Source: Gammaproteobacteria bacterium (lineage in GTDB: Bacteria; Pseudomonadota; Gammaproteobacteria; SZUA-229). Taken from it: a stretch of 64,000 nucleotides of DNA. The notes below the pieces were generated by a model. It had not been told where the DNA came from and did no database searches. It saw nothing but the letters and a program-made list of their open reading frames with translations. The translations under genes and the position numbers were made by a program. The stretch is taken from contig JAOUKV010000005.1 of NCBI GenBank assembly GCA_029882355.1, forward strand, positions 1 through 64,000, read 5' to 3'. Below, piece by piece: positions 26,667 to 42,173 of this stretch; position 1 is the stretch's first letter; each line of letters begins with the position of its first letter.

Positions 26667-27026
26667 TTAAAAAATTGGCCCCAGTGGTTTACCGGTATTT
26701 TCCACGCCCATAATGATATCAGTTTCATTCATATCACCAGTAATATCAATATGAACGCCACGCACACCCGGTTTAGTTTTTAGTATAAAAGCCGCCATTA
26801 ACATTAGTAATTTTTCATTTTCTGTTTCGATTGCGCCCAAAATTTTATCCGCGGCAATTTGACAGCGCTGCTCGGCATTGGGCTTTTCAACCCAATCACG
26901 GGACATTTGCCAGCCTTTGTCCATGTCGGCGTTCATTTGATCAAAAAAATCTGACGCTTCACTTAAAAGTTCGTCGGGCACTTCAAAAGCATTGGTACGG
27001 CCATCGACGATGATATTGAGTTTCAT
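26667..27026 (-). CDS. Hypothetical protein (119 aa)
   Basis: I do not recognise a named family. It is soluble and acidic, with a beta-hairpin start (MKLNIIVDGRTNAFEVPDELL). Helical segments include EASDFFDQMNADMDKGWQMSRDW and a C-terminal segment GVRGVHIDITGDMNETDIIM. It is divergent from the PiuC-type hydroxylase with only 65 bp between. Conservation in sulfur oxidisers should be tested. Confidence 0.65.
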   Translation of the reverse strand: MKLNIIVDGRTNAFEVPDELLSEASDFFDQMNADMDKGWQMSRDWVEKPNAEQRCQIAADKILGAIETENEKLLMLMAAFILKTKPGVRGVHIDITGDMNETDIIMGVENTGKPLGPIF

Positions 27027-27091: not shown

Positions 27092-27766
27092 ATGCTACTG
27101 ACTTTACCGGATGTTTTAAACAAAGAAGAACTCACCGTCGTTCGCGACCTGCTTGCACGCGGAAATTTTATCGACGGCAAACTCAGTGCTGGTGACGAGG
27201 CGATTCGAGTCAAAAATAATCAGGAGCTGAGCGCCAGTGACGAGCTCATGGCGCCATTAAACAATCTGGTGATGGGTAAGCTCATCAAGCATCCTGTTTA
27301 TCTCGCTGCGGCGCTTCCCTTGAAGATTGCTACGCCTTTTTATGCTAAGTATGGCAAGGGTATGACTTACGGCAACCATGTGGATGATCCAGTGATGGGA
27401 CCAATTGGCCAGCGTTATCGCACTGACCTCTCTATCACGGTATTTCTCAATGAGCCTGAAGATTATGAAGGTGGTGAACTCACTATTCAAACTTCTTTCG
27501 GTGACCAGACCGTCAAACTCAAGGCTGGTGATGCGATTATGTATCCCTCTGGCAGTACACACCGGGTAGCAGAGGTCACACGAGGTGAGCGAATTGTTGC
27601 AGTGACATGGCTACAAAGTATGGTGCGTGATCCGGCCAGGCGCGAGCTACTTTATAAACTGTCCCAGGCCCGTGACATTCTGATCGATAAACCAAACGGA
27701 AATGAAGAAACGGAACTGGTTAGTAACACTTACATTAATCTGGTTAGAATGTGGGCTGACACCTAA
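27092..27766 (+). CDS. PiuC/YbiX-type Fe(II)/2-oxoglutarate hydroxylase
   Basis: A 224-residue PKHD-type hydroxylase. The iron ligands are GNHVDD (HxD, near residue 91) and STHRV (distal His, near 152). The 2-oxoglutarate Arg is in RGERIVAVTW. It also contains LSITVFLNEPEDYEGGEL, the family signature. In other bacteria these genes sit with TonB-dependent iron receptors, but none is nearby here. It ends 45 bp before a bidirectional terminator. Confidence 0.9.
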   Translation: MLLTLPDVLNKEELTVVRDLLARGNFIDGKLSAGDEAIRVKNNQELSASDELMAPLNNLVMGKLIKHPVYLAAALPLKIATPFYAKYGKGMTYGNHVDDPVMGPIGQRYRTDLSITVFLNEPEDYEGGELTIQTSFGDQTVKLKAGDAIMYPSGSTHRVAEVTRGERIVAVTWLQSMVRDPARRELLYKLSQARDILIDKPNGNEETELVSNTYINLVRMWADT

Positions 27767-27889: not shown

Positions 27890-28093
27890 CTAGCGTTCTG
27901 AACCCGCTTCTTCGTGAGCAAGGTCTACAACTTCCATAGCCAGATCACGGTACTTTTGACGGTAACCATCTAACTCAGAACCTGCTTCTGGAGTGAAGTA
28001 TTCGCTTTGAGAAACGCCTGAAGCGTGCTCTTTAGCCATGAATTTCTTCTGCATTTCCAGCATTTCTTTAATTTTATCTGTTTTTGCGCTCAT
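27890..28093 (-). CDS. Small conserved-looking protein in sulfur locus (67 aa)
   Basis: I do not recognise this protein. It is charged and helical (KIKEMLEMQKKFMAKEHASG, then LDGYRQKYRDLAMEVVDLAHEEAG), with no cysteine and no signal peptide. It has its own promoter region with a perfect TACCC palindrome 90-104 bp upstream and a strong terminator after it. That suggests an independently regulated and well-expressed gene. Position beside the DsrC paralog suggests a sulfur-related role. Confidence 0.7.
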   Translation of the reverse strand: MSAKTDKIKEMLEMQKKFMAKEHASGVSQSEYFTPEAGSELDGYRQKYRDLAMEVVDLAHEEAGSER

Positions 28094-28152
28094 AACTTTA
28101 ATACCTTTGTTGAACAGCTGAATTATGTCAGCCTTCTAAATTCTGTGGCCGA

Positions 28153-28197
28153 ATTCTAGCACTGACTAGAAAACGACCCATATACCCCATAAGGGTA
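28153..28197 (-). promoter_or_regulatory. Promoter with TACCC palindrome before the 67-residue gene
   Basis: TACCCCATAAGGGTA (28183-28197) is a TACCC-N5-GGGTA palindrome. On the minus strand it stands 24 bp upstream of a TAGAAT -10-like box (28158-28153), a position suited to an activator. The half-sites resemble the TACYYMT heptamer bound by NarL-family regulators, and such a regulator is encoded at 47682. Linking the two is inference. Confidence 0.55.
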
Positions 28198-28204
28198 AGA
28201 TGGA

Positions 28205-28525
28205 TTAATATCCGCCTTTACGGGTACTTTGTGGGCAACCACCGATTTTTAAGCCTTGTTTTGAAGGCATCAGAGGAAACATTTCGTACATCATCTTGGA
28301 AGTGGCTTTTTCACCCCAAAGTTTGCTCATGGCTTTCATGATACCGCGTTCATTAGGCTCATCACCAGCCAACGTCTGTTCACGGACATAACGAACGATA
28401 TCCCAATGTCTCTCTGTAGGCTCGATTCCTTCTTCGGCAAAAAGTGCCGTAGCAATTTCTTCATTCCAGTCGTTTGCGTTAACCAGATAACCTTTTTCTG
28501 TTCTTTCAACTGACTCAAGTGCCAT
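28205..28525 (-). CDS. DsrC/TusE-family paralog lacking both conserved C-terminal cysteines (RspA-like)
   Basis: A 106-residue DsrC-fold protein. WNEEIATALFAEEGIEPTERHWDIV and the helix around LWGEKATSKMMYEMFP align with DsrC. The C-terminal arm reads KQGLKIGGCPQSTRKGGY. The CysB position (C98 in DsrC here) is Leu, the penultimate CysA is lost, and a new Cys97 appears where DsrC has Leu. It therefore cannot form the DsrC intramolecular or trisulfide chemistry. This places it with the RspA group (regulatory sulfur-related proteins) rather than DsrC or TusE. It follows the Cas6-like gene on the minus strand with a 118-bp gap. Confidence 0.88.
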   Translation of the reverse strand: MALESVERTEKGYLVNANDWNEEIATALFAEEGIEPTERHWDIVRYVREQTLAGDEPNERGIMKAMSKLWGEKATSKMMYEMFPLMPSKQGLKIGGCPQSTRKGGY

Positions 28526-28643: not shown

Positions 28644-29345
28644 CTAGGTTCCTGAAAAATGTGATTTCTCTTCGGCTTCACCGACAGCACTAATGCCCTT
28701 ATGTGGCAAAAAAATCCCGCAACCCAGATGACGATAATCACCAATACCCTGCTCTTGTAAGGCAATTGAGGTTTGTTTATCCAGATCAGCCATCATTAAA
28801 CTACGTGCCATAAGGCTTTTATTCGGGGTCTGGATGACATGCTCTATGCCACACAACATTTTTCTCAGTTTTATATCACGCTTAGCCAGCTCATCAATCA
28901 CCCATTGCATAAAACCATCTTCATCCAGGTTCTCTGGCACCACTACGTAACGAGAAAACAGTGTGCTCAACGGAATTAACGACTTTTCCGTGACCGCCCC
29001 AATTTCCAGCGCATGTCCGGCAATGTCCATTTTCCGGCCAACCAGGCTCATTGTTTCTTCTACTCGAATTTTGGGTACTCGCAAATTCATCCGTGTGCGT
29101 CCTGACAAATGGATCAATTCGCCATCAGCAGGTCGTTCCCAACCATTGCCCGATGTCGCACCGTGTATTTGATGAATACCAACTTCTGGTTCATCAGATA
29201 ACCAGGGTAAAATTTCATACATGGCCTGAGATAACTCCCAGGCATGGGTTGTCGGTAACTGTTTGCATTTAATCTTGAATGACAGATCAACGACATTATC
29301 AGTTTGCACAAATTCGGTTTTTTTATCTTCGTCGTCCCAAAGCAT
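28644..29345 (-). CDS. Orphan Cas6/Cmx6-like RAMP protein
   Basis: A 233-residue protein resembling the Cas6 variant of type I-MYXAN CRISPR systems (Cmx6). It has LPTTHAWELSQAMYEILPWL near residue 30 and GIHQIHGATSGNGWERP near 56. LSGRTRMNLRVPK is near 80. A C-terminal glycine-rich loop GIGDYRHLGCGIFLPHK (near 202-218) is the hallmark of RAMP endoribonucleases. In canonical systems Cas6 cuts CRISPR transcripts at the repeat. Here there is no CRISPR array and no other cas gene anywhere in the window. The gene lies in a minus-strand unit with a TauD-like enzyme and an RspA-like DsrC paralog. It may be a domesticated RNA-binding protein of sulfur oxidisers. Family match is from memory of the motifs. 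Confidence 0.8.
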   Translation of the reverse strand: MLWDDEDKKTEFVQTDNVVDLSFKIKCKQLPTTHAWELSQAMYEILPWLSDEPEVGIHQIHGATSGNGWERPADGELIHLSGRTRMNLRVPKIRVEETMSLVGRKMDIAGHALEIGAVTEKSLIPLSTLFSRYVVVPENLDEDGFMQWVIDELAKRDIKLRKMLCGIEHVIQTPNKSLMARSLMMADLDKQTSIALQEQGIGDYRHLGCGIFLPHKGISAVGEAEEKSHFSGT

Positions 29346-29353
29346 AATGCTAC

Positions 29354-29545
29354 CTATACCTGCCTGGCCGTGAAAGCGGCTTCAAGCTTATCTTGCCAGT
29401 CCGCTGGCGTATCGGCATAACCGGGTTTAACATCCATCTGGAAAAACAATTCGCCGGCTTTTGCGCGCCTGGCTAATTCTATTTTCAAATCCTCAAAACT
29501 TTCCAGATCATGGTTTTCCAGCATCACTTCACTCAACCAAAGCAT
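29354..29545 (-). CDS. Small protein between TauD-like and Cas6-like genes (63 aa)
   Basis: Unrecognised, 63 residues, acidic, with a helix LESFEDLKIELARRAKAGELF and an aromatic end (ADWQDKLEAAF). It overlaps the upstream dioxygenase gene by 13 bp and stops 8 bp before the Cas6-like gene, so it is tightly embedded in the operon. That supports it being a real gene and perhaps a partner of the Cas6-like protein. Confidence 0.65.
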   Translation of the reverse strand: MLWLSEVMLENHDLESFEDLKIELARRAKAGELFFQMDVKPGYADTPADWQDKLEAAFTARQV

Positions 29546-30453
29546 TTTATACCCCTCATTTCTGTAATTTGATCGTAATACCTGGCCCTATACATCAGGC
29601 GTTGTTGCGTGTCGCTATCGTCAAAACCCGTACGATTATGCAGTACATTGTTACAAATAATGCCCTCACCCGCATTTAATCGATATTTCAGCGTTATCGA
29701 CTCATCAGCCAGCAATTCATTAATTTTTTCAACAGCATGCTGCGTCAAAACATCATCACGCCATTCAATATTTCGCTTTCGCGCTGAATATCGCATGTGC
29801 AGCCTACCCGATATCTTATCCACTGAAAACACAGGCCCTGCCACTGCAGCTCGTATCTCTTTGCCATCTTCGATATTAGAAGGAATCGTCATCGCCTGGG
29901 GATGCATCAAAGCCTCAATCCAGAGCGGATTCTCATCGCGCAAGTAGATGTACAGTATTTCATGATCCAGCAAGCTGTTGACACCACCCTCGGCGGCCGG
30001 GCTGACACAATGCATGATAATCGTCCAAATTTGTTTGTCGGCGGCATTGTAATAACCGTCGGTATGCCAGCTCAATGGTTTGTTAGTGTACGGGATATAT
30101 TGATTTCCCTGCTGTGACCGCACCTGCAAGCTACTGACATTATCTTCATCTGAACGTAAATTTCCATCCAGTGATAACAAACCAAGCTGCTGCCCCAGCT
30201 GATGCACCAGAGTTTTATCTTGCAGCGATACATCTGACAGTTGATAAATAGCCGCACCGTAAGCAGCACACCGTTGTGTGATAGCCGTGTTTTCTTCTGG
30301 TGTTAGAGAATATGGGTCTACAATCTCAACTTTCAATGCTTCGACATTTTTGTATAGCGCGTTTAATTTAAATTGACGCCATATTTCATAATCGCGTGTG
30401 CAGGACAAATCAAAAATTTTGTCTGATTTGGGCTGTTTATTGAGATTTATCAT
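29533..30453 (-). CDS. TauD/TfdA-like 2-oxoglutarate dioxygenase
   Basis: A 306-residue non-haem iron oxygenase. The HxD motif is WHTDGYYN near residue 129. The distal His is in NNVLHNRTGF near 271, and Arg for 2-oxoglutarate is in RLMYRARYYDQ. It contains the family's core EGGVNSLLDHEILYIYL. TauD itself releases sulfite from taurine, but this protein is divergent and its substrate is not predictable. It leads the unit with the 63-residue, Cas6-like and RspA-like genes. Confidence 0.82.
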   Translation of the reverse strand: MINLNKQPKSDKIFDLSCTRDYEIWRQFKLNALYKNVEALKVEIVDPYSLTPEENTAITQRCAAYGAAIYQLSDVSLQDKTLVHQLGQQLGLLSLDGNLRSDEDNVSSLQVRSQQGNQYIPYTNKPLSWHTDGYYNAADKQIWTIIMHCVSPAAEGGVNSLLDHEILYIYLRDENPLWIEALMHPQAMTIPSNIEDGKEIRAAVAGPVFSVDKISGRLHMRYSARKRNIEWRDDVLTQHAVEKINELLADESITLKYRLNAGEGIICNNVLHNRTGFDDSDTQQRLMYRARYYDQITEMRGIKCFG

Positions 30454-30601: not shown

Positions 30602-31180
30602 TTAGTTCAAATCAGCAGCGAGGCTATCACGAATATTGGCAGGTAATGCCTCTATGCTTACATCGTATGCTGTGTGCTCGATGCCAGCCCCAATATTCGC
30701 ACCCAGTTTCACAGCCTCAGCCATCGCAGAGCTCAATTCAAATCGCATAAAATGTACTGCCGATGTTTTTTCAGCATTATCACGTTCGAGATCTTCATCA
30801 GCAATAGCATAAATACGCTCATGTCCAGCAACCTGCATCCAGACTTTATCTTCAATACCAATCATTTTTGCCAGGGCTGCCTTACGCTCATTTTCATCAA
30901 CATACTCAAGCATAAAGGTTGCTTTCCAGTTGCATCCATCAGGAATCAGCGCGTTATAAGTATCCAGCTCCTCTTGAATACCTTCAGCATCAAAAATTCG
31001 TTCAACCCGTAGCATTTCCTGAATCTGGTACTGCATGGTCAACCGATCTTCAAAATACAATGTGGCATTTTCACCGAGCTTTAACTGACGGTTTTTTTTA
31101 TGAGCCATGACTTTTTCACGAAAGGCTTCTCGTTGATCAGAATAAGATTCCAGGCTTAATAAATCATCACGTTTCAACAT
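30602..31180 (-). CDS. DUF3501 family protein
   Basis: A 192-residue cytosolic protein of the DUF3501 family. The N-terminal MLKRDDLLSLESYSDQREAFR and ALYFEDR-like segment ATLYFEDRLTMQYQIQEMLR are its signature, and a C-terminal beta-rich half ends with HTAYDVSIEALPANIR. It has no known activity. In many proteobacteria it is the third gene after rubrerythrin and an HdrD/GlpC-like Fe-S protein, exactly as here (17 bp after the Fe-S gene). Confidence 0.88.
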   Translation of the reverse strand: MLKRDDLLSLESYSDQREAFREKVMAHKKNRQLKLGENATLYFEDRLTMQYQIQEMLRVERIFDAEGIQEELDTYNALIPDGCNWKATFMLEYVDENERKAALAKMIGIEDKVWMQVAGHERIYAIADEDLERDNAEKTSAVHFMRFELSSAMAEAVKLGANIGAGIEHTAYDVSIEALPANIRDSLAADLN

Positions 31181-31197
31181 TACATAAATTCCTTCAA

Positions 31198-32535
31198 TTA
31201 GATGCCGTAGGCCTTTCGTAACAGACTTAACGGGTGTTCGGGTTTACTACCATCAGCCAGCCCGTTTGCAATCTGGTGGCCGGCCATCGGACAATCGCTA
31301 GAATAATGATCGGGGACGGCTTGTTTAACCTTATTAACGACCGGTCGACCTATCTTCATAGACGCCTCATGAAATTCTTTTTTCACCGCGTAAGTACCAT
31401 CATGACCAGAGCAACGCTCGATGGTATCGACTTCAGTATCCGGAATTAATTGCAGAATATCTCGTGTTTTCATGCCTATATTTTGCACACGCTGGTGACA
31501 GGCTACCTGGTAACTGATTTTACCCAACGACTGGCTAAAATCAGTTTTTAACAGGCCTTCTTTGTGGCGTAACATCAGATATTCAAAAGGATCAAAAATT
31601 GCCGCAGCAACCTTTTGCACTTGTGCATCATCAGGAAACATCAGGCGTAGTTCCTGTTTGAACATGAGCACACAGGAAGGCACTGGTGCGACTATATCCC
31701 AGCCTTCATCGACCAGTTTGGCCAACACGGGAATATTGGCATCTTTGGCTTTACGTACGGCTTCTAAATCACCGAGTTCAAGTTTTGGCATACCGCAACA
31801 CTGTTCTTTTTCAGCCAGCTTCAGTGGAATACCATTATGCGCAAAGACGGCAACCAGGTCTTCACCCAATTCAGGTGCATTATAGTTTCCATAGCAGGTT
31901 GCAAACATTGCGACCTTGCCACGCGTTGCTGCCGTGGCCACGGCCGCACTCTCATCTGCACGATGATTGCTGAGTCGCTTACGTAATGTCTTACCGTGAT
32001 ACTCAGGCAAAGTGGCATCAGCGTGCACCCCGAGGGTTGCTTCAAGCACCTTGCGTATTGGTTTACTTCTATTAGCGGCATTAACGATATCACTAACAAT
32101 GGGAATACCCGCTAAACTACCCACTGCATCGGTTGATGAAAGTATTTTATCGCGTGTGCTCGCGCCTTGTTTGCGAAATTTAACCGCCTTGGCACGAAGC
32201 ATTAAATGGGGAAAGTCCAGATTCCATTCATGAGGGGGAACATAAGGACATTTGCTCATATAACAAAGATCACACAGAAAACAGTGATCGACGACTTGCC
32301 AATAATCCTTCTTATCAACACCATCAACTTCCATGGTTGATGACTCATCAACAAGATCAAAAAGTGTCGGAAATGACTTACACAAGCTCACACAGCGACG
32401 ACAGCCATGACATATATCGTAGGCACGTTCGAGCTCAGCATATAATTTCTCTTCATCCCAGAAAGATTCACTCTCCCAGTCCAATGGATGTCGGGTCGGT
32501 GCCTGTAGACTGCCTTCACGAATGCCTGATGCCAT
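31198..32535 (-). CDS. Heterodisulfide reductase/GlpC-like iron-sulfur protein
   Basis: A 445-residue protein with two N-terminal 4Fe-4S motifs, CHGCRRCVSLCKSFP (residues about 42-56) and CFLCDLCYMSKCPYVPP (about 86-102). Two cysteine-rich CCG-type domains follow, with KEQCCGMPKLE near 245 and ACHQRVQNIG / CSGHDGTYA in the last third. The CCG fold holds the non-cubane cluster of heterodisulfide reductases and of GlpC/GlcF subunits. No partner flavoprotein is adjacent, so it is not a classical glycerol-3-phosphate or glycolate enzyme. It probably passes electrons to or from rubrerythrin; this is inferred from context. Confidence 0.88.
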   Translation of the reverse strand: MASGIREGSLQAPTRHPLDWESESFWDEEKLYAELERAYDICHGCRRCVSLCKSFPTLFDLVDESSTMEVDGVDKKDYWQVVDHCFLCDLCYMSKCPYVPPHEWNLDFPHLMLRAKAVKFRKQGASTRDKILSSTDAVGSLAGIPIVSDIVNAANRSKPIRKVLEATLGVHADATLPEYHGKTLRKRLSNHRADESAAVATAATRGKVAMFATCYGNYNAPELGEDLVAVFAHNGIPLKLAEKEQCCGMPKLELGDLEAVRKAKDANIPVLAKLVDEGWDIVAPVPSCVLMFKQELRLMFPDDAQVQKVAAAIFDPFEYLMLRHKEGLLKTDFSQSLGKISYQVACHQRVQNIGMKTRDILQLIPDTEVDTIERCSGHDGTYAVKKEFHEASMKIGRPVVNKVKQAVPDHYSSDCPMAGHQIANGLADGSKPEHPLSLLRKAYGI

Positions 32536-32626
32536 AACGAGTTATTCCCTTCAGTAAAAAAATAAGTTTTAAACCATTACGGCCGACACAATAGTCGACC
32601 GTAACTAGGCACTACTACAACTGGAA

Positions 32627-33046
32627 TTAAGCGTCCAGAGTATCCAAAGCCTTCTGGAAACGGTTAGCATGTGAACGTTCTGCCTTACCCAGTGTTTCAA
32701 ACCAGTCAGCAATTTCATCAAAACCTTCTTCACGCGCAGCCTTGGCCATACCAGGGTACATATCTGTGTACTCGTGAGTTTCGCCAGCGATAGACGCTTT
32801 CAGATTATCACTAGTACCACCAATTGGCAGACCTGTAGCCGGGTCACCTGTTTCTTCAAGATATTCCAGATGACCGTGAGCATGACCGGTCTCGCCTTCT
32901 GCAGTTGAACGGAAAACAGCAGCCACGTCGTTATAACCTTCAACATCAGCTTTTGCTGCAAAATACAGGTAACGACGGTTAGCTTGTGATTCGCCTGCAA
33001 AAGCATCTTTCAAATTCTGCTCGGTTTTACTACCTTTAAGGTCCAT
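32627..33046 (-). CDS. Rubrerythrin-type diiron protein without rubredoxin domain
   Basis: A 139-residue four-helix diiron protein. Ligands are visible as [37 protein letters not shown] and [16 protein letters not shown]. The C-terminal rubredoxin CxxC domain of classic rubrerythrin is absent, so electrons must come from a partner. The Fe-S protein 91 bp downstream is the obvious candidate. Role: peroxide reduction or related redox stress protection. A perfect inverted repeat lies 36 bp before its start. Confidence 0.92.
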
Positions 33047-33596: not shown

Positions 33597-33721
33597 AACT
33601 TTTACCACCTGGGATATTGAGAACAGTTTGATTTGGGAATACAATCAGTTCCCCGATTTCGACCAAAATACATGCTTTGACCATAAGGTCGGCGCAACGA
33701 CGGTACAACAGGAGAAAATCC

Positions 33722-34984
33722 ATGGCCAAAAAGATTTACGAAACACCAATGCTGGACGTCCTTGAAGAAGGACCATGGCCCAGTTTTATTTCTGGTATTA
33801 AGAAACTTCGTGATGAGCACCCTAACGAGCGCATTCAAGCAGAAACAAGCAGCCTTCTAGGTCAGCTTGAGCATTCTTATGAAACTCGTAAGGGTTACTG
33901 GAAAGGCGGCACCGTATCTGTTTATGGTTATGGCGGTGGTATTATTCCTCGCTTCTCAGAAGTAGCTTCTGCTTTCCCTGAGTCTAAAGAGTTCCATACA
34001 GTACGTGTTCAACCACCTGCTGGTAACCACTACACAACTGCAATGTTACGTCAGTTGGGCGATAGCTGGGAAAAATGGGGTTCAGGCCTACAAACATTCC
34101 ACGGTCAGACTGGTAACATCATGTTCATCGGTACTGATACAGAAAGAACTCAACACTTCTTTGATGAAATCAATGCTTACGGCTGGGATCTTGGTGGTGC
34201 TGGTCCATGTGTACGTACTGCAATGTCTTGTGTAGGTGCTTCACGTTGTGAAATGTCTAACTGTAACGAGCACGGTATTCACCGTCACCTGGTAAATAAC
34301 TTTACTGATGACGTTCATCGTCCTGCTCTGCCTTACAAATTCAAATTTAAAGTTTCTGGTTGCCCTAACGACTGTCAGAATGCTATCGAACGTGCAGACA
34401 TGGCCATCATTGGTACATGGCGCGACGAAATGAAAGTTGATCAGGAAGCAGTTAAAGCTTATGTTGCTGCTAAAGGCCGTCAATACATCATCGACAACGT
34501 TACAACACGTTGCCCAACTAATGCACTGGTTCTTAATGATGACGACACACTCGCTGTTGATAATCATAACTGCGTACGTTGCATGCATTGCCTGAATGTT
34601 ATGCCTAAAGCGCTTCACCCTGGTGATGACAAAGGTGTAACTATCCTGATCGGTGGTAAACGTACACTGAAGATTGGTGACTTAATGGGTACTGTTGTTA
34701 TTCCGTTCAAGAAACTTGAAACAGAAGACGATTACGAAAACCTGATTGAGCTGGCTGAAGAAATCATTGATTTCTGGGCTGAGAACGGTCTTGAGCACGA
34801 GCGTTGTGGTGAAATGATCGAACGTATCGGCCTGGTTAACTTCCTTGAAGGCGTTGACTACGATTTGGACGTTGATCCAAATATGGTTAGCAACCCACGT
34901 CAGAGTTCATACATCCGCATGGATGGCTGGGATGATGAAGCTATTAAATGGTTCGAGCGCAAGCAAGAAGCAGCTAACGCTTAA
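33722..34984 (+). CDS. dsrA: Reverse dissimilatory sulfite reductase, alpha subunit
   Basis: A 420-residue subunit of the cytoplasmic siroheme enzyme that oxidises DsrC-bound or zero-valent sulfur to sulfite in sulfur oxidisers. The siroheme-4Fe4S cysteines are in CVRTAMSCVGASRCEMSNC near residue 162 and VSGCPNDCQNA near 212. The inserted ferredoxin domain carries CVRCMHCLNVMPKALHP near 285. The substrate-site GNHYTTAMLRQLGDSWEKWG is present. I start at ATG 33722, which has AGGAG 8 bp upstream; the longer frame to 33677 lacks homologous residues. First gene of dsrABEFHC. Confidence 0.97.
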   Translation: MAKKIYETPMLDVLEEGPWPSFISGIKKLRDEHPNERIQAETSSLLGQLEHSYETRKGYWKGGTVSVYGYGGGIIPRFSEVASAFPESKEFHTVRVQPPAGNHYTTAMLRQLGDSWEKWGSGLQTFHGQTGNIMFIGTDTERTQHFFDEINAYGWDLGGAGPCVRTAMSCVGASRCEMSNCNEHGIHRHLVNNFTDDVHRPALPYKFKFKVSGCPNDCQNAIERADMAIIGTWRDEMKVDQEAVKAYVAAKGRQYIIDNVTTRCPTNALVLNDDDTLAVDNHNCVRCMHCLNVMPKALHPGDDKGVTILIGGKRTLKIGDLMGTVVIPFKKLETEDDYENLIELAEEIIDFWAENGLEHERCGEMIERIGLVNFLEGVDYDLDVDPNMVSNPRQSSYIRMDGWDDEAIKWFERKQEAANA

Positions 34985-35005: not shown

Positions 35006-35027
35006 GGAGAGGGTTTACGCCCTCTCC
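35006..35027 (+). other. Intercistronic hairpin dsrA-dsrB
   Basis: GGAGAGGG (35006-35013) and CCCTCTCC (35020-35027) form a perfect 8-bp GC-rich stem with loop TTTACG. No U-run follows, so it is more likely a processing or stability hairpin than a terminator. It lies 35 bp before the dsrB start. Confidence 0.7.
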
Positions 35028-35062: not shown

Positions 35063-36139
35063 ATGAGTGATGATAAACCTCGTTCACCGATAGAATCTGG
35101 ATGCCCTGATGGATTCCAATACATTCACCCAGTTATGCGCAAAAACTATGGCGCGTGGAAGTTTCATGAACATCCAAAACCAGGTGTACTACGTCATGTA
35201 GCTTACAGTGGCGACGAAATCTGGACTGTACGTGTTGGTACACAACGTATTCTGGATATTTTCTCTTTACGCGAACTTTGTGACATTGGTGATGATTTTG
35301 CCGACGGTTATATTCACTTTACTATTCGTAGTAACGTTGAATACATGGTTTCAGACCCAGCTAAAGTTGAGCCTCTAATCAAAGCAATCACTGACAAAGG
35401 CTACATCGTTGGTGGTACACAGAACTCTGTAGCTATGATGTCTCATACACAGGGCTGGTTGCATTGTGATATCCCTGGTACTGATGCTTCTGGTGTTGTT
35501 AAGTCAATGATGGATGAGCTGATCGATGAGTTCCGTAATGCTGACATGCCTAACCGCGTACACATTACTACTTCTTGCTGCCAGATTAACTGTGGTGGTC
35601 AGGGCGACATCGCGATTAACGTGCAGCACACTAAGCCACCTAAGATTAACCATGACTTAGTATCAAACGTTTGTGAGCGTCCTACTGTTGTAGCTCGTTG
35701 CCCTGTTGCTGCGATTCGTCCTGCGATGGTTAACGGCAAACCTACTCTTGAAGTTGACGAGAAGAAATGTATCTGTTGTGGTGCATGTTTCCCTCCTTGT
35801 CCTCCAATGATGATTAATGATGCTGAGCATTCAAAACTGGCTGTTTGGGTTGGTGGTAATCATTCTAATGCACGTAGCAAACCTACTTTCCAGAAATTGG
35901 TAGCTGCTGGTATTCCAAACAATCCACCACGCTGGCCTGAAGCTACTGCTATCGTTAAGCAAATTCTTAAAGCTTACAAAGCAGATGCGAAAGACTGGGA
36001 ACGTATGAATGACTGGATTGAACGTATTGGCTGGCCTCGTTTCTTCGAGAAGACAGGTCTTCCGTTCACGAAATACCATATTGATAACTGGCGCGGTGCA
36101 CGTAATAGCTTGAATGCATCTACCCACATTCGTTTCTAA
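35063..36139 (+). CDS. dsrB: Reverse dissimilatory sulfite reductase, beta subunit
   Basis: A 358-residue partner of DsrA in the alpha2beta2 enzyme. The siroheme-cluster cysteines lie in TTSCCQINCGGQGD near residue 172 and ERPTVVARCPVAAIRP near 212. The ferredoxin insert has KCICCGACFPPCPPMM near 235. The N-terminal HPVMRKNYGAWKFHEHPKPGVL is typical of DsrB. ATG has GAGGAAG upstream. Gene order dsrAB followed by dsrEFH identifies the oxidative type. Confidence 0.97.
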   Translation: MSDDKPRSPIESGCPDGFQYIHPVMRKNYGAWKFHEHPKPGVLRHVAYSGDEIWTVRVGTQRILDIFSLRELCDIGDDFADGYIHFTIRSNVEYMVSDPAKVEPLIKAITDKGYIVGGTQNSVAMMSHTQGWLHCDIPGTDASGVVKSMMDELIDEFRNADMPNRVHITTSCCQINCGGQGDIAINVQHTKPPKINHDLVSNVCERPTVVARCPVAAIRPAMVNGKPTLEVDEKKCICCGACFPPCPPMMINDAEHSKLAVWVGGNHSNARSKPTFQKLVAAGIPNNPPRWPEATAIVKQILKAYKADAKDWERMNDWIERIGWPRFFEKTGLPFTKYHIDNWRGARNSLNASTHIRF

Positions 36140-36148
36140 GGTGATTCT

Positions 36149-36541
36149 GTGAAATTTTCGCTTCAAATTAACGAAGGTCCTTACCAGCATCAAGCCGCTG
36201 ATAGTGCAATTCAATTCACTAAAGCTGCGCTGGCTAAAGGCCATGAAATATTCCGCGTGTTCTTCTATCACGACGGTGTGAATAATGCGACTCGTCTCGC
36301 TATTCCACCTCAAGATGACCGCAACATCACTGCAGAGTGGGTTGCATTACAGAAAGAACATAATCTTGATTTAGTTGTATGTATTGCTGCTGCCCAACGT
36401 CGTGGTTTGATTGACGAAGATGAAATGACACGTCAAGGCAAAGATGCTAACAATATTTCAGAAGGTTTCCGCATTTCAGGTTTAGGTCAATTGATCGAAG
36501 CCGGAATTGAAGCTGACCGTCTGATCGTCTTCGGTGCATAA
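36149..36541 (+). CDS. dsrE: Sulfur relay protein DsrE
   Basis: A 130-residue subunit of the cytoplasmic DsrE2F2H2 sulfurtransferase, which hands persulfide sulfur to DsrC. The sulfur-binding Cys78 is in LDLVVCIAAAQRRG, with the usual GFRISGLGQLIEAGIEADRLIVF end. The start is GTG, 9 bp after dsrB; that start is supported by the family's MKFSLQINEGPY N-terminus. Homologous to TusD. Confidence 0.96.
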   Translation: MKFSLQINEGPYQHQAADSAIQFTKAALAKGHEIFRVFFYHDGVNNATRLAIPPQDDRNITAEWVALQKEHNLDLVVCIAAAQRRGLIDEDEMTRQGKDANNISEGFRISGLGQLIEAGIEADRLIVFGA

Positions 36542-36552
36542 GGGGAAATACA

Positions 36553-36954
36553 ATGGCTAAAAAATTCATGTATATCAACCGTAAAGCACCTTATGGCACT
36601 GTTTACGCTCTGGAATCTTTAGAGGTTGTACTAATTGGTGCAGCTTTTGATCAGGACGTAAGCCTCGCTTTCATCGGTGACGGTGTATACCAGTTAACTA
36701 AAGGGCAAAACACTAAAGCAATCGGACAGAAGAACTTCTCTCCTGTCTACATGGCTTTAGGTGATTACGACGTAAACAAAATTTACGTTGAAAAAGAATC
36801 ACTTGAAGAGCGTGGTTTGTCACTCGAAGATCTTCAGCACCTTGTTTGGGAAGATGAAGATAATGATTATGAAGAAAAAGATTCAATTCGTTTGGTAAGC
36901 CGGGCTGAATTGACTGACGTTCTTGATGAACAAGAAGTAATACTGAGCTTCTAG
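36553..36954 (+). CDS. dsrF: Sulfur relay protein DsrF
   Basis: A 133-residue DsrE/F-like subunit of the DsrEFH hexamer. It contains no cysteine at all, as expected for the structural subunit (TusC type). The N-terminus KKFMYINRKAPYGTVYALESLE is the family pattern. Starts 11 bp after dsrE with a GGGG/GAAA-type ribosome site. It ends 11 bp before dsrH. Confidence 0.95.
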   Translation: MAKKFMYINRKAPYGTVYALESLEVVLIGAAFDQDVSLAFIGDGVYQLTKGQNTKAIGQKNFSPVYMALGDYDVNKIYVEKESLEERGLSLEDLQHLVWEDEDNDYEEKDSIRLVSRAELTDVLDEQEVILSF

Positions 36955-36965
36955 GAGATAAGACT

Positions 36966-37268
36966 ATGGCACTATTACACACCGTAAATAAATCTCCGTT
37001 TGAATCAAACACTTTTGATGCTTGCTTAGGTCTGGCTAAAAGTGGCTCAACAGTACTGTTGATAGAAGACGGCGTTTATGCAGCAACTACTGGCAACAGT
37101 GTCGCTGATAAAATAAAAAATGCTGCAGGCATTAATTTCTGCGTACTTGGCCCTGATTTACAAGCACGTGGAGTAGAAGAAAAACTGGCCGAAGGTATCA
37201 AAGTTGTAGATTACGAAGGCTTTGTTGATTTGGTTGCTGAGCACGACGCTGTACAGGCTTGGCTTTAA
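36966..37268 (+). CDS. dsrH: Sulfur relay protein DsrH
   Basis: A 100-residue third subunit of DsrEFH (TusB type). The conserved Cys20 is in NTFDACLGLAKSGS, followed by LLIEDGVYAATTG. A second cysteine occurs near residue 58. It ends 50 bp before dsrC, in an AT-rich gap without a hairpin, so dsrC shares its transcript. Confidence 0.95.
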   Translation: MALLHTVNKSPFESNTFDACLGLAKSGSTVLLIEDGVYAATTGNSVADKIKNAAGINFCVLGPDLQARGVEEKLAEGIKVVDYEGFVDLVAEHDAVQAWL

Positions 37269-37318
37269 TTTTTAAATTTTAATCTTTAATTTTCGTTTTT
37301 TACGAGGAAAGAAATATC

Positions 37319-37651
37319 ATGGCTATTGAAGCAAACGGTAAAACATTTGAAACTGACGAAGAAGGATATCTGGCTAACCTGAACGAATGGGAACCAGAAG
37401 TAGCAACAGCAATGGCTTTAGCAGAAGATTGCCCATTAACTGACGAGCACTGGGATATCATCAATTTTCTTCGTGAATACTACGAAGAATACCAAATTGC
37501 ACCAGCAGTACGCGTACTGACTAAAGCTGTTGGTAAAAAATTGGGTAAAGATAAAGGTAACAGCAAGTACTTATACGAGTTGTTCCCTTATGGCCCGGGT
37601 AAACAAGCATGTAAATATGCTGGTCTGCCAAAACCAACTGGTTGTGTATAA
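37319..37651 (+). CDS. dsrC: Sulfur carrier DsrC
   Basis: A 110-residue sulfur carrier that delivers persulfide to DsrAB and exchanges electrons with DsrMKJOP. Both functional cysteines of the C-terminal arm are present: CysB (C98) in KQACKYAGLP and the penultimate CysA (C109) in PTGCV. It is therefore a true DsrC, unlike the paralog at 28205. ACGAGGAAAG upstream is a strong ribosome site. A strong terminator 15 bp downstream ends this block. Confidence 0.97.
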   Translation: MAIEANGKTFETDEEGYLANLNEWEPEVATAMALAEDCPLTDEHWDIINFLREYYEEYQIAPAVRVLTKAVGKKLGKDKGNSKYLYELFPYGPGKQACKYAGLPKPTGCV

Positions 37652-37665
37652 CAATTAGTTGTAAA

Positions 37666-37703
37666 CAGGGGGGCAGAATCTGCTCCCCTGCTTTTTTATT
37701 TTT
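37666..37703 (+). terminator. Strong terminator between dsrC and dsrM
   Basis: CAGGGG-G-GCA (37666-37675) pairs with TGC-T-CCCCTG (37681-37690): ten pairs with one G-T wobble and a 5-base loop, followed by CTTTTTTATTTTT. It is the only strong terminator inside the dsr cluster. It should leave dsrABEFHC more abundant than dsrMKLJOPNR unless a second promoter lies before dsrM. Confidence 0.9.
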
Positions 37704-37758
37704 AGTTTGTAGTACTTTTTTATTTTTTTAGTAACCACTTGGGCGAGACGTTATAACC

Positions 37759-38520
37759 ATGACTGTTTTAAGTATCATATATGTCGTGCTTTTCTATGTA
37801 GCCATCATTGTTCTTTTTGGCGGCATAGCAAATAAGGTAATGTTATATAAACGTGTACCAGCGCCACTGAAAATACCTGTGACACCTGCACCCATTACAA
37901 GAGGCGGCGTTGTCTACCGATTATTCTATGAGGTTGTTTTCTTTAATAGCCTCTTCCGTGCCAGCAAATGGACCTGGATATTTGGCTGGATTTTCCATGT
38001 GTCTTTATTGCTCGCATTCTTCCGTCACTTACGTTATGTGATTTCACCAGATGTTTTCTTCTGGCCTTTAGTTAATAATCAGATTGTTCAAAGTTTTGGG
38101 CATTACGCTGGTTTTACAATGCTGCTTGGTCTTGCTGGCTTATTGGCTCGTCGTTTTCTTGTCGATCGTGTACGTTACATTTCTTCGGCTTCCGATTATT
38201 TGATGCTAATTTTGATCATGGGCATTGCAACTTCTGGTTTAATGATTGTCTACGTCGCACATACCGACATCATTCAATTAAAAGCGTTCATCATGGGCTT
38301 ATTCCTTGCTGATCCACAAAATTTACCATCTGATCCAATTTTGTTGGTACATCTTACTATGGTGTTATTTTTAGCAGTGATTTTCCCCATTAGTAAACTG
38401 CTACACGCACCCGGTTTGTTTTTTGCACCCACACGTAATCAAGTAGATAACCCACGCGAGAAACGTCATCTTTCTGCATGGGGTGCTGAAATTGAAAAGA
38501 AAGATGGCCGTAACGCTTAA
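37759..38520 (+). CDS. dsrM: DsrM, cytochrome b subunit of the DsrMKJOP membrane complex
   Basis: A 253-residue inner-membrane protein of the NarI type with about six helices. It carries haem b, and His residues in helices near residues 72 (IFHVSLLLAFFRHLRY), 114 and 192 (LVHLTMVLFLAVIFPISKLLHAPG) are candidate ligands. It links the quinone pool to the cytoplasmic DsrK. Starts 107 bp after dsrC beyond the terminator. Weak ribosome site GGGCGAGACG. Confidence 0.95.
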   Translation: MTVLSIIYVVLFYVAIIVLFGGIANKVMLYKRVPAPLKIPVTPAPITRGGVVYRLFYEVVFFNSLFRASKWTWIFGWIFHVSLLLAFFRHLRYVISPDVFFWPLVNNQIVQSFGHYAGFTMLLGLAGLLARRFLVDRVRYISSASDYLMLILIMGIATSGLMIVYVAHTDIIQLKAFIMGLFLADPQNLPSDPILLVHLTMVLFLAVIFPISKLLHAPGLFFAPTRNQVDNPREKRHLSAWGAEIEKKDGRNA

Positions 38521-38584
38521 CTGATTTAATACTGCTTAATTTAAACAAGAAATCACTGCAACTATAAAAAGCTGAGAAACAAGA

Positions 38585-40144
38585 ATGGCTGATTACGAAA
38601 TACCAGAAACGCATGAATTCCCCATCATTCCATCCATTATGGAAGGTGCGATGGCGCATAGCGCACCGTTTGTTGCCAGTGAAGAATTTCAAACTGCAAT
38701 GGGTTTCCCTAGCGGCGCAGAAACTGGCCAGTTGATTGATGGCTGGAAAGAGAAATTTTTAGAACTGCTTGAAGAAAAATTAGGCAAATATCGTTCATTA
38801 CAGGTATTTATGGATACCTGCGTAAAATGTGGTGCCTGCACAGATAAGTGTCACTACTTCATCGGTACTGCTGACCCTAAAAATATGCCTGTCGCACGCC
38901 AGGATCTTATTCGTAAGATATATCGTCGTTACTTTACTTTTGCAGGTAAATTTTTCGGTAAGTTAGGTATCCCAGGTTTTGTCGGCGCAGCTGAGTTAAC
39001 CGAAGAAGCCGTTAGAGAAATGTACAGTTACTATCACCAATGTTCAGAATGCCGTCGTTGTGCTGTGTTCTGTCCTTTTGGCATTGATACTGCTGAAGTG
39101 ACCATGGCAGCACGCGACATTCTGTCAATGATCGGCATGGGTCAGAAATATTCTAATCAGATTATTCCCAAGATTCATAAAATTGGTAATAACCTCGGTC
39201 TACCAGAAGCAGCACTAGCTGATACGCTGGAAGGTCTTGAAGAAGAAATTGAAGACGAAACTGGTGTAAAAGTTCGCTTACCACTTGATGAGAAAGGCGC
39301 AGATATTCTTTTGGTAACACCCTCTGCGGATTTCTTTGCTGAACCACACGTTGATGGCTTAATGGGTTATGCCAAAGTATTCCATGCTGCTGGTGTTAGC
39401 TGGACAATCAGCTCTCTCGCATCAGAAGCCGCCAATTTTGGTTTATTCATCGGTAACTATGAGGCCATGCGTAACATCTCGCTTCGCATCCGTGATGAAG
39501 CAAAAAGACTGGGCGTAAAACGTATTATTTTTGGTGAGTGTGGTCATGCCTGGCGTGTTGCTTACAATCACTTGAATACACTCGCTGGACCATGGGACTT
39601 CCTTGATCAGAACTACCCTATTCCACAGCACATTCTTGAATTTACCAAGGATTGTCTGGATCGTGACATTTTAAATATCGACAAGTCAGAAAATGATCAC
39701 ATGACTCTGACCTTTCATGACTCCTGTAATATCGCACGAGCTTCACGCATTGGTGAAGAGCCAGGTAGTCAGTTCACAACACCACGTGAAGTCATTAAAG
39801 CTGTCTGTAACAACTTCCATGACATGCCAATAGAAACAATTCATGACCAGACCTTCTGCTGCGGTGGCGGTGGTGGTCTATTGACTGATGACTTGATGGA
39901 ATTACGCATTAAAGGCGCACTTCCCCGTATGGAAGCACTCAAGAATACCGTCGCAGAAAAAGGCGTCACACATATGGCCGCTATTTGTGCCATCTGTAAA
40001 TCACAATTTACTAAAGTCCTGCCCTATTACGGCATGACAATGGACCAAATCGTTAGTGTCCATCAGCTAGTTAGCAGTGCCATCATTCTTGAAGGCCAGG
40101 GCGAAGAAGCTGAAGAATCTGACGACGCAGAAGAATCTGCATAA
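38585..40144 (+). CDS. dsrK: DsrK, HdrD-like iron-sulfur catalytic subunit
   Basis: A 519-residue cytoplasmic-facing subunit that reacts with DsrC. Two 4Fe-4S motifs, CVKCGACTDKCHYF near residue 80 and CSECRRCAVFCPFG near 155, are followed by HdrD-type cysteine-rich domains. These contain GECGHAWR (near 320), CCGGGGGLLTDD (near 423) and CAICKSQFTKVLPYYG (near 470). The acidic C-terminal tail (EEAEESDDAEESA) is not needed for the fold. 64 bp from dsrM. Confidence 0.96.
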   Translation: MADYEIPETHEFPIIPSIMEGAMAHSAPFVASEEFQTAMGFPSGAETGQLIDGWKEKFLELLEEKLGKYRSLQVFMDTCVKCGACTDKCHYFIGTADPKNMPVARQDLIRKIYRRYFTFAGKFFGKLGIPGFVGAAELTEEAVREMYSYYHQCSECRRCAVFCPFGIDTAEVTMAARDILSMIGMGQKYSNQIIPKIHKIGNNLGLPEAALADTLEGLEEEIEDETGVKVRLPLDEKGADILLVTPSADFFAEPHVDGLMGYAKVFHAAGVSWTISSLASEAANFGLFIGNYEAMRNISLRIRDEAKRLGVKRIIFGECGHAWRVAYNHLNTLAGPWDFLDQNYPIPQHILEFTKDCLDRDILNIDKSENDHMTLTFHDSCNIARASRIGEEPGSQFTTPREVIKAVCNNFHDMPIETIHDQTFCCGGGGGLLTDDLMELRIKGALPRMEALKNTVAEKGVTHMAAICAICKSQFTKVLPYYGMTMDQIVSVHQLVSSAIILEGQGEEAEESDDAEESA

Positions 40145-40199
40145 ACAACATTTAATTTTTGATTAATACCGGTAACGGTTGAAGCATAGGAGAACTGGC

Positions 40200-42173
40200 A
40201 TGGCCACTTCCAAAGAAGACATGCAAAACGATAAGTTAACATACAGAAGATTTGAAGAAGGCGACCAGGATTGGGGTAGCTTTGCTAAAAAAATCTTTAA
40301 AGAAGACACTTCACACAAGTGTCCTACTTATGTTCACCGTACACCACCTTGTCAGGGTAGCTGCCCGTCAGGTGAAGACATTCGTGGCTATCTGGATATC
40401 GTTCGCGGTATAGAAAAACCACCTGAAGGCGTTTCAATGCAGGAATATGCATTCCGTCGTTCAACTGATGCTAACCCGTTCCCTTCTATGATGGGTCGTG
40501 TTTGCCCTGCTCCATGTCAGGACGGTTGTAACCGTAATCAGGTTGAAGATTTTGTCGGTATCAACTCTGTTGAGCAGTACATTGGTGATACTGCTTTCAC
40601 TGAAGGCTTCAAGTTCGATAACAGCGCTAAAATGACGGGTAAAAAAGTCGCCATCATCGGCGGCGGCCCTGCTGGCATGGCTGCGGCTTACCAACTACGT
40701 CGTAAAGGCATCGCTTCTACTATTTTTGATGACCATGCTGAATTAGGCGGCATGATGCGTTATGGCATCCCTGGCTACCGTACTCCTCGTCCTCAGTTGA
40801 ACAACGAGTGCCAACGAATTCTGGACATGGGTGATATTGAAACACGCATGAACACTCGTGTTGGTAAAGACGTTGCTGTTGCCGATCTTGAAAAAGAATT
40901 CGATGCAGTTTTATGGGCATTGGGCTGTAAATCAGGTCGTGGTTTATTCCTCGATGACTGGAACGACACACCTAACTGTGTCTCTGCGGTTGATTTCCTT
41001 GAGCAGTTCAACAAAGGTGATATGAAATACACCGCTAACAAGATCCTTTGTGTTGGTGGTGGTGATACTTCTATCGATGTTGTCTCTGTTGCACGTCGCA
41101 TCGGTACTTTGAAAGATTTCAATGAAAACCCAGAAGATTCAGCTACTGGCGCGAGTACACACGGCGACGTTGATGATTCAGCAAAAACAGCTTGTGATAG
41201 CGTAGTCCTGACTGCCCTGTTCAAACAGGAAGACATGACGGCTGCTGAACACGAAGTTCAGGACGCACTGATCGAAGGCGTTACCATCATGAATGAAGTA
41301 ATGCCTGTTGAAATCATAAAAGATGCTAACGGTCGCGCTACTGCACTGAAACTGGTTGATAGCAAATTTGAAAACAACATGCCTGTCGCCGTTGAAGGCG
41401 GTAAGGAGTATATTGTTGAAGCTGACTTGATCGTTGCTGCTATTGGTCAAACTGGTGATATGACCGGTGTTGAAGACTTTGATAATGGCCGTGGCTTAAT
41501 TGACGCCGACAACTTCTACCGTGTACCTGGTAAAGAAGGTCATTTTGTTTGCGGTGATATTGTTCGCCCTCACCTTTTGACTACGGCTATTGGCCAGGCT
41601 TCAATTGTGTCTGACACTATTGAAGCTTACATGAACAATTCAAAAGTTGATAAACGCCCTAAAGTTGATGTTCACCACTTTGAATTAGGTGAAAAGCTTG
41701 AAGAAGCGGGTCTACACGTTGATGCTTATGACGTTGCTGATCACAAAGACGATGCCCAACGTGGAACTGAGACCAGTTCTTACGCCATTCACAACTTCGA
41801 AGATCGTTCATCACAGGAAATTATTTCGACTGATGAGATGTTCCTTGGTCACTTCGAGTACGTAAACCGTAATTTGCGTTCTACTGACGTACCTTCTTCT
41901 GACGATGTACTCGGTCATTTTGCCGAACGTCAGGCAGGTTTGACTGAAGATGCTGCGATTGCTGAAGCTGGTCGTTGCATGAGCTGCGGTATGTGTTTCG
42001 AGTGTGATAACTGTGTTATCTATTGTCCACAGGATGCAGTCTTCAAAGTGAAGAAAGGTGAAGCTACAACAGGCCGTTATGTTGATACTGACTACAGTAA
42101 ATGCATCGGCTGCCATATTTGTTCTGATGTTTGCCCAACCGGTTACATCGACATGGCATTAGGCGACGCTTAA
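40200..42173 (+). CDS. dsrL: DsrL, FAD and iron-sulfur NAD(P)H:acceptor oxidoreductase
   Basis: A 657-residue flavoprotein that accepts electrons from DsrAB and reduces NAD(P)+ in sulfur oxidisers. The N-terminal Fe-S region has PPCQGSCPSGEDIRGYL and RVCPAPCQDGCNRNQV. The FAD site is IIGGGPAGMAAAYQLRRKG near 150, and the NAD(P) site LCVGGGDTSIDVVSVARR near 280. A C-terminal ferredoxin has CMSCGMCFECDNCVIYCPQ and CIGCHICSDVCPTG. I start at ATG 40200 with AGGAG upstream; an in-frame TTG at 40179 is less likely. It marks the oxidative pathway. Confidence 0.96.
   Translation: MATSKEDMQNDKLTYRRFEEGDQDWGSFAKKIFKEDTSHKCPTYVHRTPPCQGSCPSGEDIRGYLDIVRGIEKPPEGVSMQEYAFRRSTDANPFPSMMGRVCPAPCQDGCNRNQVEDFVGINSVEQYIGDTAFTEGFKFDNSAKMTGKKVAIIGGGPAGMAAAYQLRRKGIASTIFDDHAELGGMMRYGIPGYRTPRPQLNNECQRILDMGDIETRMNTRVGKDVAVADLEKEFDAVLWALGCKSGRGLFLDDWNDTPNCVSAVDFLEQFNKGDMKYTANKILCVGGGDTSIDVVSVARRIGTLKDFNENPEDSATGASTHGDVDDSAKTACDSVVLTALFKQEDMTAAEHEVQDALIEGVTIMNEVMPVEIIKDANGRATALKLVDSKFENNMPVAVEGGKEYIVEADLIVAAIGQTGDMTGVEDFDNGRGLIDADNFYRVPGKEGHFVCGDIVRPHLLTTAIGQASIVSDTIEAYMNNSKVDKRPKVDVHHFELGEKLEEAGLHVDAYDVADHKDDAQRGTETSSYAIHNFEDRSSQEIISTDEMFLGHFEYVNRNLRSTDVPSSDDVLGHFAERQAGLTEDAAIAEAGRCMSCGMCFECDNCVIYCPQDAVFKVKKGEATTGRYVDTDYSKCIGCHICSDVCPTGYIDMALGDA

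Follow-up and report, generated by a model that had tools for sequence, protein, structure and literature searches.

Within the window, by which we mean the whole 64-kb stretch of DNA analysed, a Cas6-family RAMP protein (hereafter Cas6L) is encoded opposite the dsr operon, and across Gammaproteobacteria this protein accompanies dsrA independently of CRISPR. At about even odds (a probability of roughly 0.5), we read Cas6L as a CRISPR-independent, RNA-binding endoribonuclease of the Cas6 family with an accessory part in reverse-Dsr sulfur oxidation. The observations beneath this reading are the predicted Cas6 fold, a conserved histidine together with a glycine-rich loop, a separate phylogenetic branch, co-occurrence with dsrA, independence from Cas1 and soxB, and divergent linkage. 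Among the organisms that oxidise sulfur through Dsr are SUP05-type ocean bacteria, many symbionts of animals and the purple sulfur bacteria. The genes of this pathway are regarded as known; a conserved component carried under a CRISPR label would be a missing part of it, and it would give a CRISPR ribonuclease family a life outside immunity. Cas6 itself is an established family, and the novelty lies in a role in which it was not known: a search of the open literature, with subscription journals outside its reach, returned no paper tying Cas6 to dsr, none on an orphan Cas6 of this kind and nothing on Alvin_1246-1250.

An earlier, sequence-only reading had described a Cas6/Cmx6-like RAMP protein and called for a TIGR02807 profile search and a structure prediction, and both bore the description out. 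The profile searches, a sequence match in the PDB and the predicted fold all identify Cas6L as a full-length Cas6-family RAMP protein: it matched Pfam Cas6 (PF09559) over its full length (E 5.6e-60, 203 bits against a cut-off of 26.7) and NCBIfam TIGR02807 cas6_cmx6 with 138.5 bits (cut-off 98.85), several PADLOC Cas6 models recognised it, and a sequence search of the PDB retrieved the solved Cas6 8fcj (E 2e-12). Distant homologues likewise scored above the curated Cas6 profile cut-offs, and the TIGR02807 cut-off was passed by all nine proteins tested, Dsr- or CRISPR-linked. The open reading frame starts with ATG in the list for the 64-kb window, the gene is present in a single copy in its own genome (98.5% complete, 62 contigs), and same-genus homologues are 75-81% identical. 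An AlphaFold2 model built from three sequences was of moderate to weak quality (pLDDT 61, pTM 0.59). Foldseek placed 8fcj_B first (E 1e-8) and P. furiosus Cas6 after it, and VIA aligned the model with 8fcj_B at Z 14.3 over 194 residues, followed by other Cas6 chains, P. furiosus Cas6 and Cas6e. Because the best structural matches of the model are Cas6 chains, the tandem ferredoxin-like RAMP fold of the Cas6 family is supported for Cas6L at the level of prediction.

Table 1. Features of the Cas6L unit and the divergent dsr operon (positions in the window).
Feature	Coordinates	Strand	Remarks
p119	26667..27026	-	Conserved, no known family; often nearby
PKHD-type Fe2+ dioxygenase	27092..27766	+	Often found beyond p67; unit membership unsure
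p67	27890..28093	-	Conserved 67-aa protein, no known family; downstream of DsrC paralog
DsrC paralog (PF04358)	28205..28525	-	Without both functional C-terminal Cys of DsrC; tail here PSKQGLKIGGCPQSTRKGGY
Cas6L (PF09559/TIGR02807), RAMP protein	28644..29345	-	233 aa; profiles, PDB match, predicted fold
Codon of His34 in Cas6L	29244..29246	-	Candidate catalytic residue, begins helix 1 in the model; alignment and model
p63	29354..29545	-	Conserved 63-aa protein, no known family; member of Cas6L unit
TauD-like Fe(II)/2-oxoglutarate dioxygenase (PF02668)	29533..30453	-	Overlaps p63
DUF3501, CCG/Fe-S protein, rubrerythrin	30602..33046	-	Three-gene insertion between tauD and dsrA, outside the conserved unit
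dsrA (TIGR02064, 622 bits)	33677..34984	+	First of divergent dsr operon; listed ORF may begin upstream of true start
dsrA-dsrB intercistronic hairpin	35006..35027	+	GGAGAGGGTTTACGCCCTCTCC; possible Cas6L target, candidate only
dsrB, dsrE, dsrF, dsrH, dsrC, dsrM, dsrK, dsrL (in that order)	35063..42173	+	
dsrC-dsrM intercistronic hairpin	37666..37690	+	Followed by T-rich stretch; terminator- or stability-like

We compared Cas6L and its relatives with eight CRISPR Cas6 proteins residue by residue. His34 was present in 109 of the 111 aligned sequences, and Arg89 and Gly210 in all 111. The C-terminal glycine-rich loop reported earlier, GIGDYRHLGCGIF, was confirmed, with glycines that hardly vary among homologues. 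His34 opens the helix spanning residues 34-45 of the model, a position matching that of the catalytic histidine in known Cas6 enzymes, at the start of helix 1, and it is thus a candidate catalytic residue. Its role is uncertain, since tyrosine replaces it in two homologues and the transposon-associated Cas6 8fcj carries asparagine at the aligned residue. The Cas6L clade further bears motifs missing from CRISPR Cas6, namely an N-terminal MxWxED, LPW (46-48), SGNGWxRP (65-72) and HKGI near the C-terminus. These clade-specific motifs would suit a protein that kept the Cas6 fold, lost its RNA enzymology and became a scaffold that binds proteins, or an assembly factor, serving either Dsr proteins or the cysteine-less DsrC paralog, as would the protein-level Dsr parts among the constant neighbours of Cas6L. 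A pure scaffold, however, needs neither His34 nor Arg89 nor the glycine-rich loop, all of which are retained almost everywhere, and SUP05-like genomes keep Cas6L with its usual partner genes missing around it; we regard a scaffold as unlikely, though it is the strongest of the competing explanations.

An unrooted tree of the 111 sequences separated the 8 CRISPR Cas6 proteins from the 103 Dsr-associated proteins by one branch (SH-aLRT 89), placing Cas6L on a branch apart from CRISPR Cas6. The type I-MYXAN / I-B2 Cas6 (Cas6b, Cmx6; TIGR02807, PF09559), exemplified by Cas6b of plasmid pSYLB in Synechocystis sp. PCC 6714, shares with Cas6L the candidate catalytic histidine, the glycine-rich loop, the predicted fold and the full-length family match. 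Cas6L is nevertheless only 23-28% identical to such proteins, falls on its separate branch, has neither cas genes nor an array alongside, and differs in its additional motifs and its place beside dsr. The Synechocystis PCC 6714 I-B system, including Cas6b, has been reconstituted (PMC11096372). The best solved relative, Cas6 of a type I-B CAST Cascade (PDB 8fcj), serves a transposon-encoded Cascade and differs from Cas6L at the residue aligned to His34.

The absence of a CRISPR context, also claimed from the sequence alone, was borne out. No CRISPR-like array was detected in the 64-kb window by a script that, run on a true CRISPR locus (L160), does detect its array, and no other cas gene (cas3, cas8b/cmx8, cas7 or cas5) lies in the window. 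Moreover, the 98.5% complete genome on 62 contigs yielded no Cas1 (PF01867), no Cas7/DevR, and no Cas3 above the family cut-off. Cas neighbours, an array in the window and a genomic Cas1, each of which would mark a type I-MYXAN (I-B2) system, were all absent. Among 23 dsrA-linked or long relatives, 17 had dsr genes in place of cas genes; true CRISPR systems (L063, L065 and L160) have cas3 and cas8 beside cas6. A phage or mobile origin of Cas6L was rejected, as no relative was found among IMG/VR viral contigs and the plasmid search gave cyanobacterial Cas6 only. One such plasmid, from Gloeobacter morelensis (L064 2477-3268), carries a Cas6 gene adjoining a PAPS-reductase-family gene and a cupin gene with no adjacent cas3, perhaps another non-CRISPR Cas6.

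To follow the proposed genome survey, we searched 370 gammaproteobacterial genomes, each at least 90% complete, for Cas6L (profile A1), dsrA, Cas1 and soxB. Cas6L was found in 128, dsrA in 125 and both in 122; thus, 122 of the 125 dsrA genomes carry Cas6L, compared with 6 of the 245 without dsrA (Fisher p = 5e-86, ignoring phylogeny). Matches span 56 family codes (CRISPR case excluded) with conserved synteny, so the association is far from chance, and dsr-positive and dsr-negative members within one family agree with the pattern in f2, f33, f51, f94 and f120. Among the matches lacking dsrA, G390 has a genuine type I-B locus with Cas6, Cas3, Cas8b, Cas5, Cas1 and an array, indicating that the profile search detects CRISPR Cas6 where one exists. 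In four others (G097, G118, G148 and G315) the contig ends beside Cas6L, exactly where dsrA would be expected, and in G299, which is 91% complete, the Cas6L unit is not next to dsrA, an arrangement shared by its genus. Conversely, the dsrA genomes without Cas6L break off close to dsrA (658 bp to the contig end in G132, 1.9 kb in G144 and 150 bp in G222), with tauD and p63 still visible in the 1.9-kb stretch of G144. Given these contig ends and the incompleteness of G299, with its unit set apart, there is no firm exception in either direction.

Cas6L does not mark sulfur oxidation as such and is independent of soxB, being present in only 4 of 48 genomes with soxB and without dsrA. A separate phylum-wide draw gave gammaproteobacterial matches only. 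Both the phyletic co-occurrence and the linkage to dsrA expected of a reverse-Dsr accessory component were observed. The accessory genes of the dsr cluster of the Allochromatium vinosum type are dsrEFH, dsrL, dsrN, dsrR and dsrS; Cas6L has the same phyletic pattern and place as these genes, yet it is none of them and is the sole Cas6/RAMP-family RNA-processing protein of the set. This pattern suggests that a major sulfur pathway has an RNA-handling component that has gone unrecognised.

The same survey bears on whether Cas6L serves arrays elsewhere in the genome by processing their CRISPR RNA in trans, its dsr location being a historical accident. Such a role would agree with its passing the TIGR02807 equivalog and PADLOC Cas6 models, but Cas1 occurred in 60 of the 128 Cas6L genomes against 89 of the 242 without Cas6L (odds ratio 1.5, p 0.07), that is, without a significant Cas1 excess and with 68 of the 128, more than half, lacking Cas1 altogether. 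Neither Cas1 nor Cas7, nor any Cas3 over cut-off, turned up in the genome of the window; of the 90 genomes that have Cas1 and lack dsrA, only 2 hold a Cas6 family member; and Cas6L sits on its separate branch. We rejected this role on the Cas1 statistics and consider it extremely improbable. Co-occurrence with dsrA and the lack of co-occurrence with Cas1 together back the earlier idea of recruitment to sulfur metabolism, which had been staked on a RAMP fold and on homologues found away from CRISPR-Cas loci; we found both. Cas6L is CRISPR-free in this genome, but the word 'orphan' says too little, Cas6L being a near-universal companion of Dsr in Gammaproteobacteria and no isolated stray. Because the TIGR02807 equivalog and the PADLOC Cas6 models label Cas6L as CRISPR-associated, surveys miscount CRISPR parts in sulfur oxidisers, and the finding corrects CRISPR annotation in these organisms.

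We then turned to the gene neighbourhood. The minus-strand unit is as the sequence-only reading had it, with a TauD-like dioxygenase gene overlapping that of the 63-residue protein (p63), Cas6L 8 nt from p63, and a DsrC paralog, all facing dsrABEFHCMKL on the opposite strand. The order p67, DsrC paralog, Cas6L, p63, tauD and divergent dsrA-dsrL recurs in most of the 32 relatives read at length and holds down to 38% protein identity, with contig ends accounting for many shorter loci; a metagenome assembly named Acidithiobacillales (L032) has the same Cas6L-dsr order. Across the 370 genomes, Cas6L lay within 6 kb of dsrA in 89 and was divergent from it in all 89, with the TauD-like dioxygenase, p63, the cysteine-less DsrC paralog and p67 as usual neighbours. 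Furthermore, the four most distant homologues, from a separate draw (29-36% identity), are divergent from dsrA and have tauD and a DsrC paralog on the same side as Cas6L. Among the loci read, the DUF3501-CCG/Fe-S-rubrerythrin insertion occurs in this genome only. Several lineages place a ~235-aa uncharacterised protein with no Pfam match between p63 and Cas6L (L032 7144-7863, L162 1525-2238 and L171 5317-6015).

The DsrC paralog has the family consensus tail PSKQG..IAGLP.S.RKGGY, and canonical DsrC ends in KQACKYAGLPKPTGCV or similar, in nearly all loci read. Cysteine-less DsrC forms are called RspA in the literature. Strong conservation of this RKGGY-ending paralog across many families gives it the look of a non-carrier, regulatory DsrC. 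A DsrC paralog close to the dsr cluster, as in this window, is also known from Thiodictyon syntrophicum, where the DsrC-like gene THSYN_22565 lies a few loci from the cluster and no Cas6-like neighbour is mentioned (PMC5944118). The gap between the DsrC paralog and p67 (28094-28204, minus strand) contains a palindrome-like TACCC(T/A)TATGGGGTA that is nearly identical in the closest relatives and may be a regulator site.

The constancy of this arrangement raises the possibility that Cas6L is a non-cleaving RNA-binding repressor or activator of the divergent tauD and dsrA leaders. Some Cas6 proteins remain bound to their product, and the Cas6/RAMP fold, the invariably divergent orientation of linked Cas6L, and a tauD-dsrA gap of ~290-470 nt in most loci, which leaves room for leaders, would all accord with such a regulator. 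SUP05-like genomes (1.2-1.6 Mb) speak against it: there, Cas6L and dsrA are separated by 40-517 kb or lie on different contigs, so cis control by Cas6L is not general, and we judge this alternative to be distinctly improbable. None of tauD, p63, the DsrC paralog or p67 is near Cas6L in these genomes, and Cas6L is thus the most retained member of the unit in reduced SUP05-like genomes. In the three read closely (L166 5779-7174, L168 and L174), it is divergent from an rnc-like (RNase III) gene, whose identity was confirmed by Pfam in L166. This placement may be due to chance, yet it argues for a job wider than cis control.

As for possible substrates, the suggestion that Cas6L targets dsr hairpins stood in part. 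Stem-loops exist in the dsrA-dsrB and dsrC-dsrM gaps of most loci, where their presence is conserved. The stem sequence of the dsrC-dsrM hairpin is not conserved, and a T-rich stretch often follows it, much as behind a terminator or a stabilising 3' element. This hairpin is likewise seen where no Cas6L gene is near the dsr copy (L133, L135 and others), and two small Cas6L-bearing genomes lack hairpins in their readable gaps: in G073 (L120), where Cas6L adjoins dsr, neither gap holds a strong hairpin, and in G261 (L122) the dsrC-dsrM gap is without one. On both grounds, the hairpins were ruled out as an obligate Cas6L substrate, and they are candidates only. The conserved dsrA-dsrB hairpin has no T-run behind it and is odd given that the two subunits are required in equal amounts. 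No conserved RNA structure was found in the gap between Cas6L and the DsrC paralog, and no Rfam family reached the gathering threshold around the locus.

Another conceivable substrate is tRNA or its fragments, through which Cas6L would link sulfur flux to translation, DsrEFH/DsrC being homologous to the tRNA-thiolating TusBCD/TusE. DsrE, DsrF and DsrH score as TusD, TusC and TusB, and a TusA gene and a rhodanese gene adjoin the Cas6L unit in two loci (L159 and L156); the proposal is nonetheless speculative, a tRNA target being without sequence support, and we think it very unlikely.

Returning to the reading of Cas6L as an RNA-binding endoribonuclease, we propose that it would bind a short structured RNA and probably cleave it through the conserved histidine, and that this handling may set the stability or translation of Dsr-pathway transcripts, with the cysteine-less DsrC paralog possibly acting as a non-carrier reporter or regulator within the unit. 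A bolder version, which we put forward tentatively and with less than even confidence, is that a Cas6-derived or Cas6-ancestral ribonuclease forms a core part of reverse-Dsr across Gammaproteobacteria and matures or destroys a specific RNA, coupling sulfur flux to Dsr expression, the flux perhaps being sensed via the cysteine-less DsrC paralog and the 2-oxoglutarate dioxygenase. If true, it would make Cas6L the first known case of a CRISPR ribonuclease in the service of energy metabolism. Cas6L thereby poses a testable question, namely which RNA it touches and how its loss affects sulfur oxidation. Elsewhere in the window, positions 19651-22011 encode a 786-aa Gly/Asn/Thr-rich repetitive protein that is probably a surface protein.
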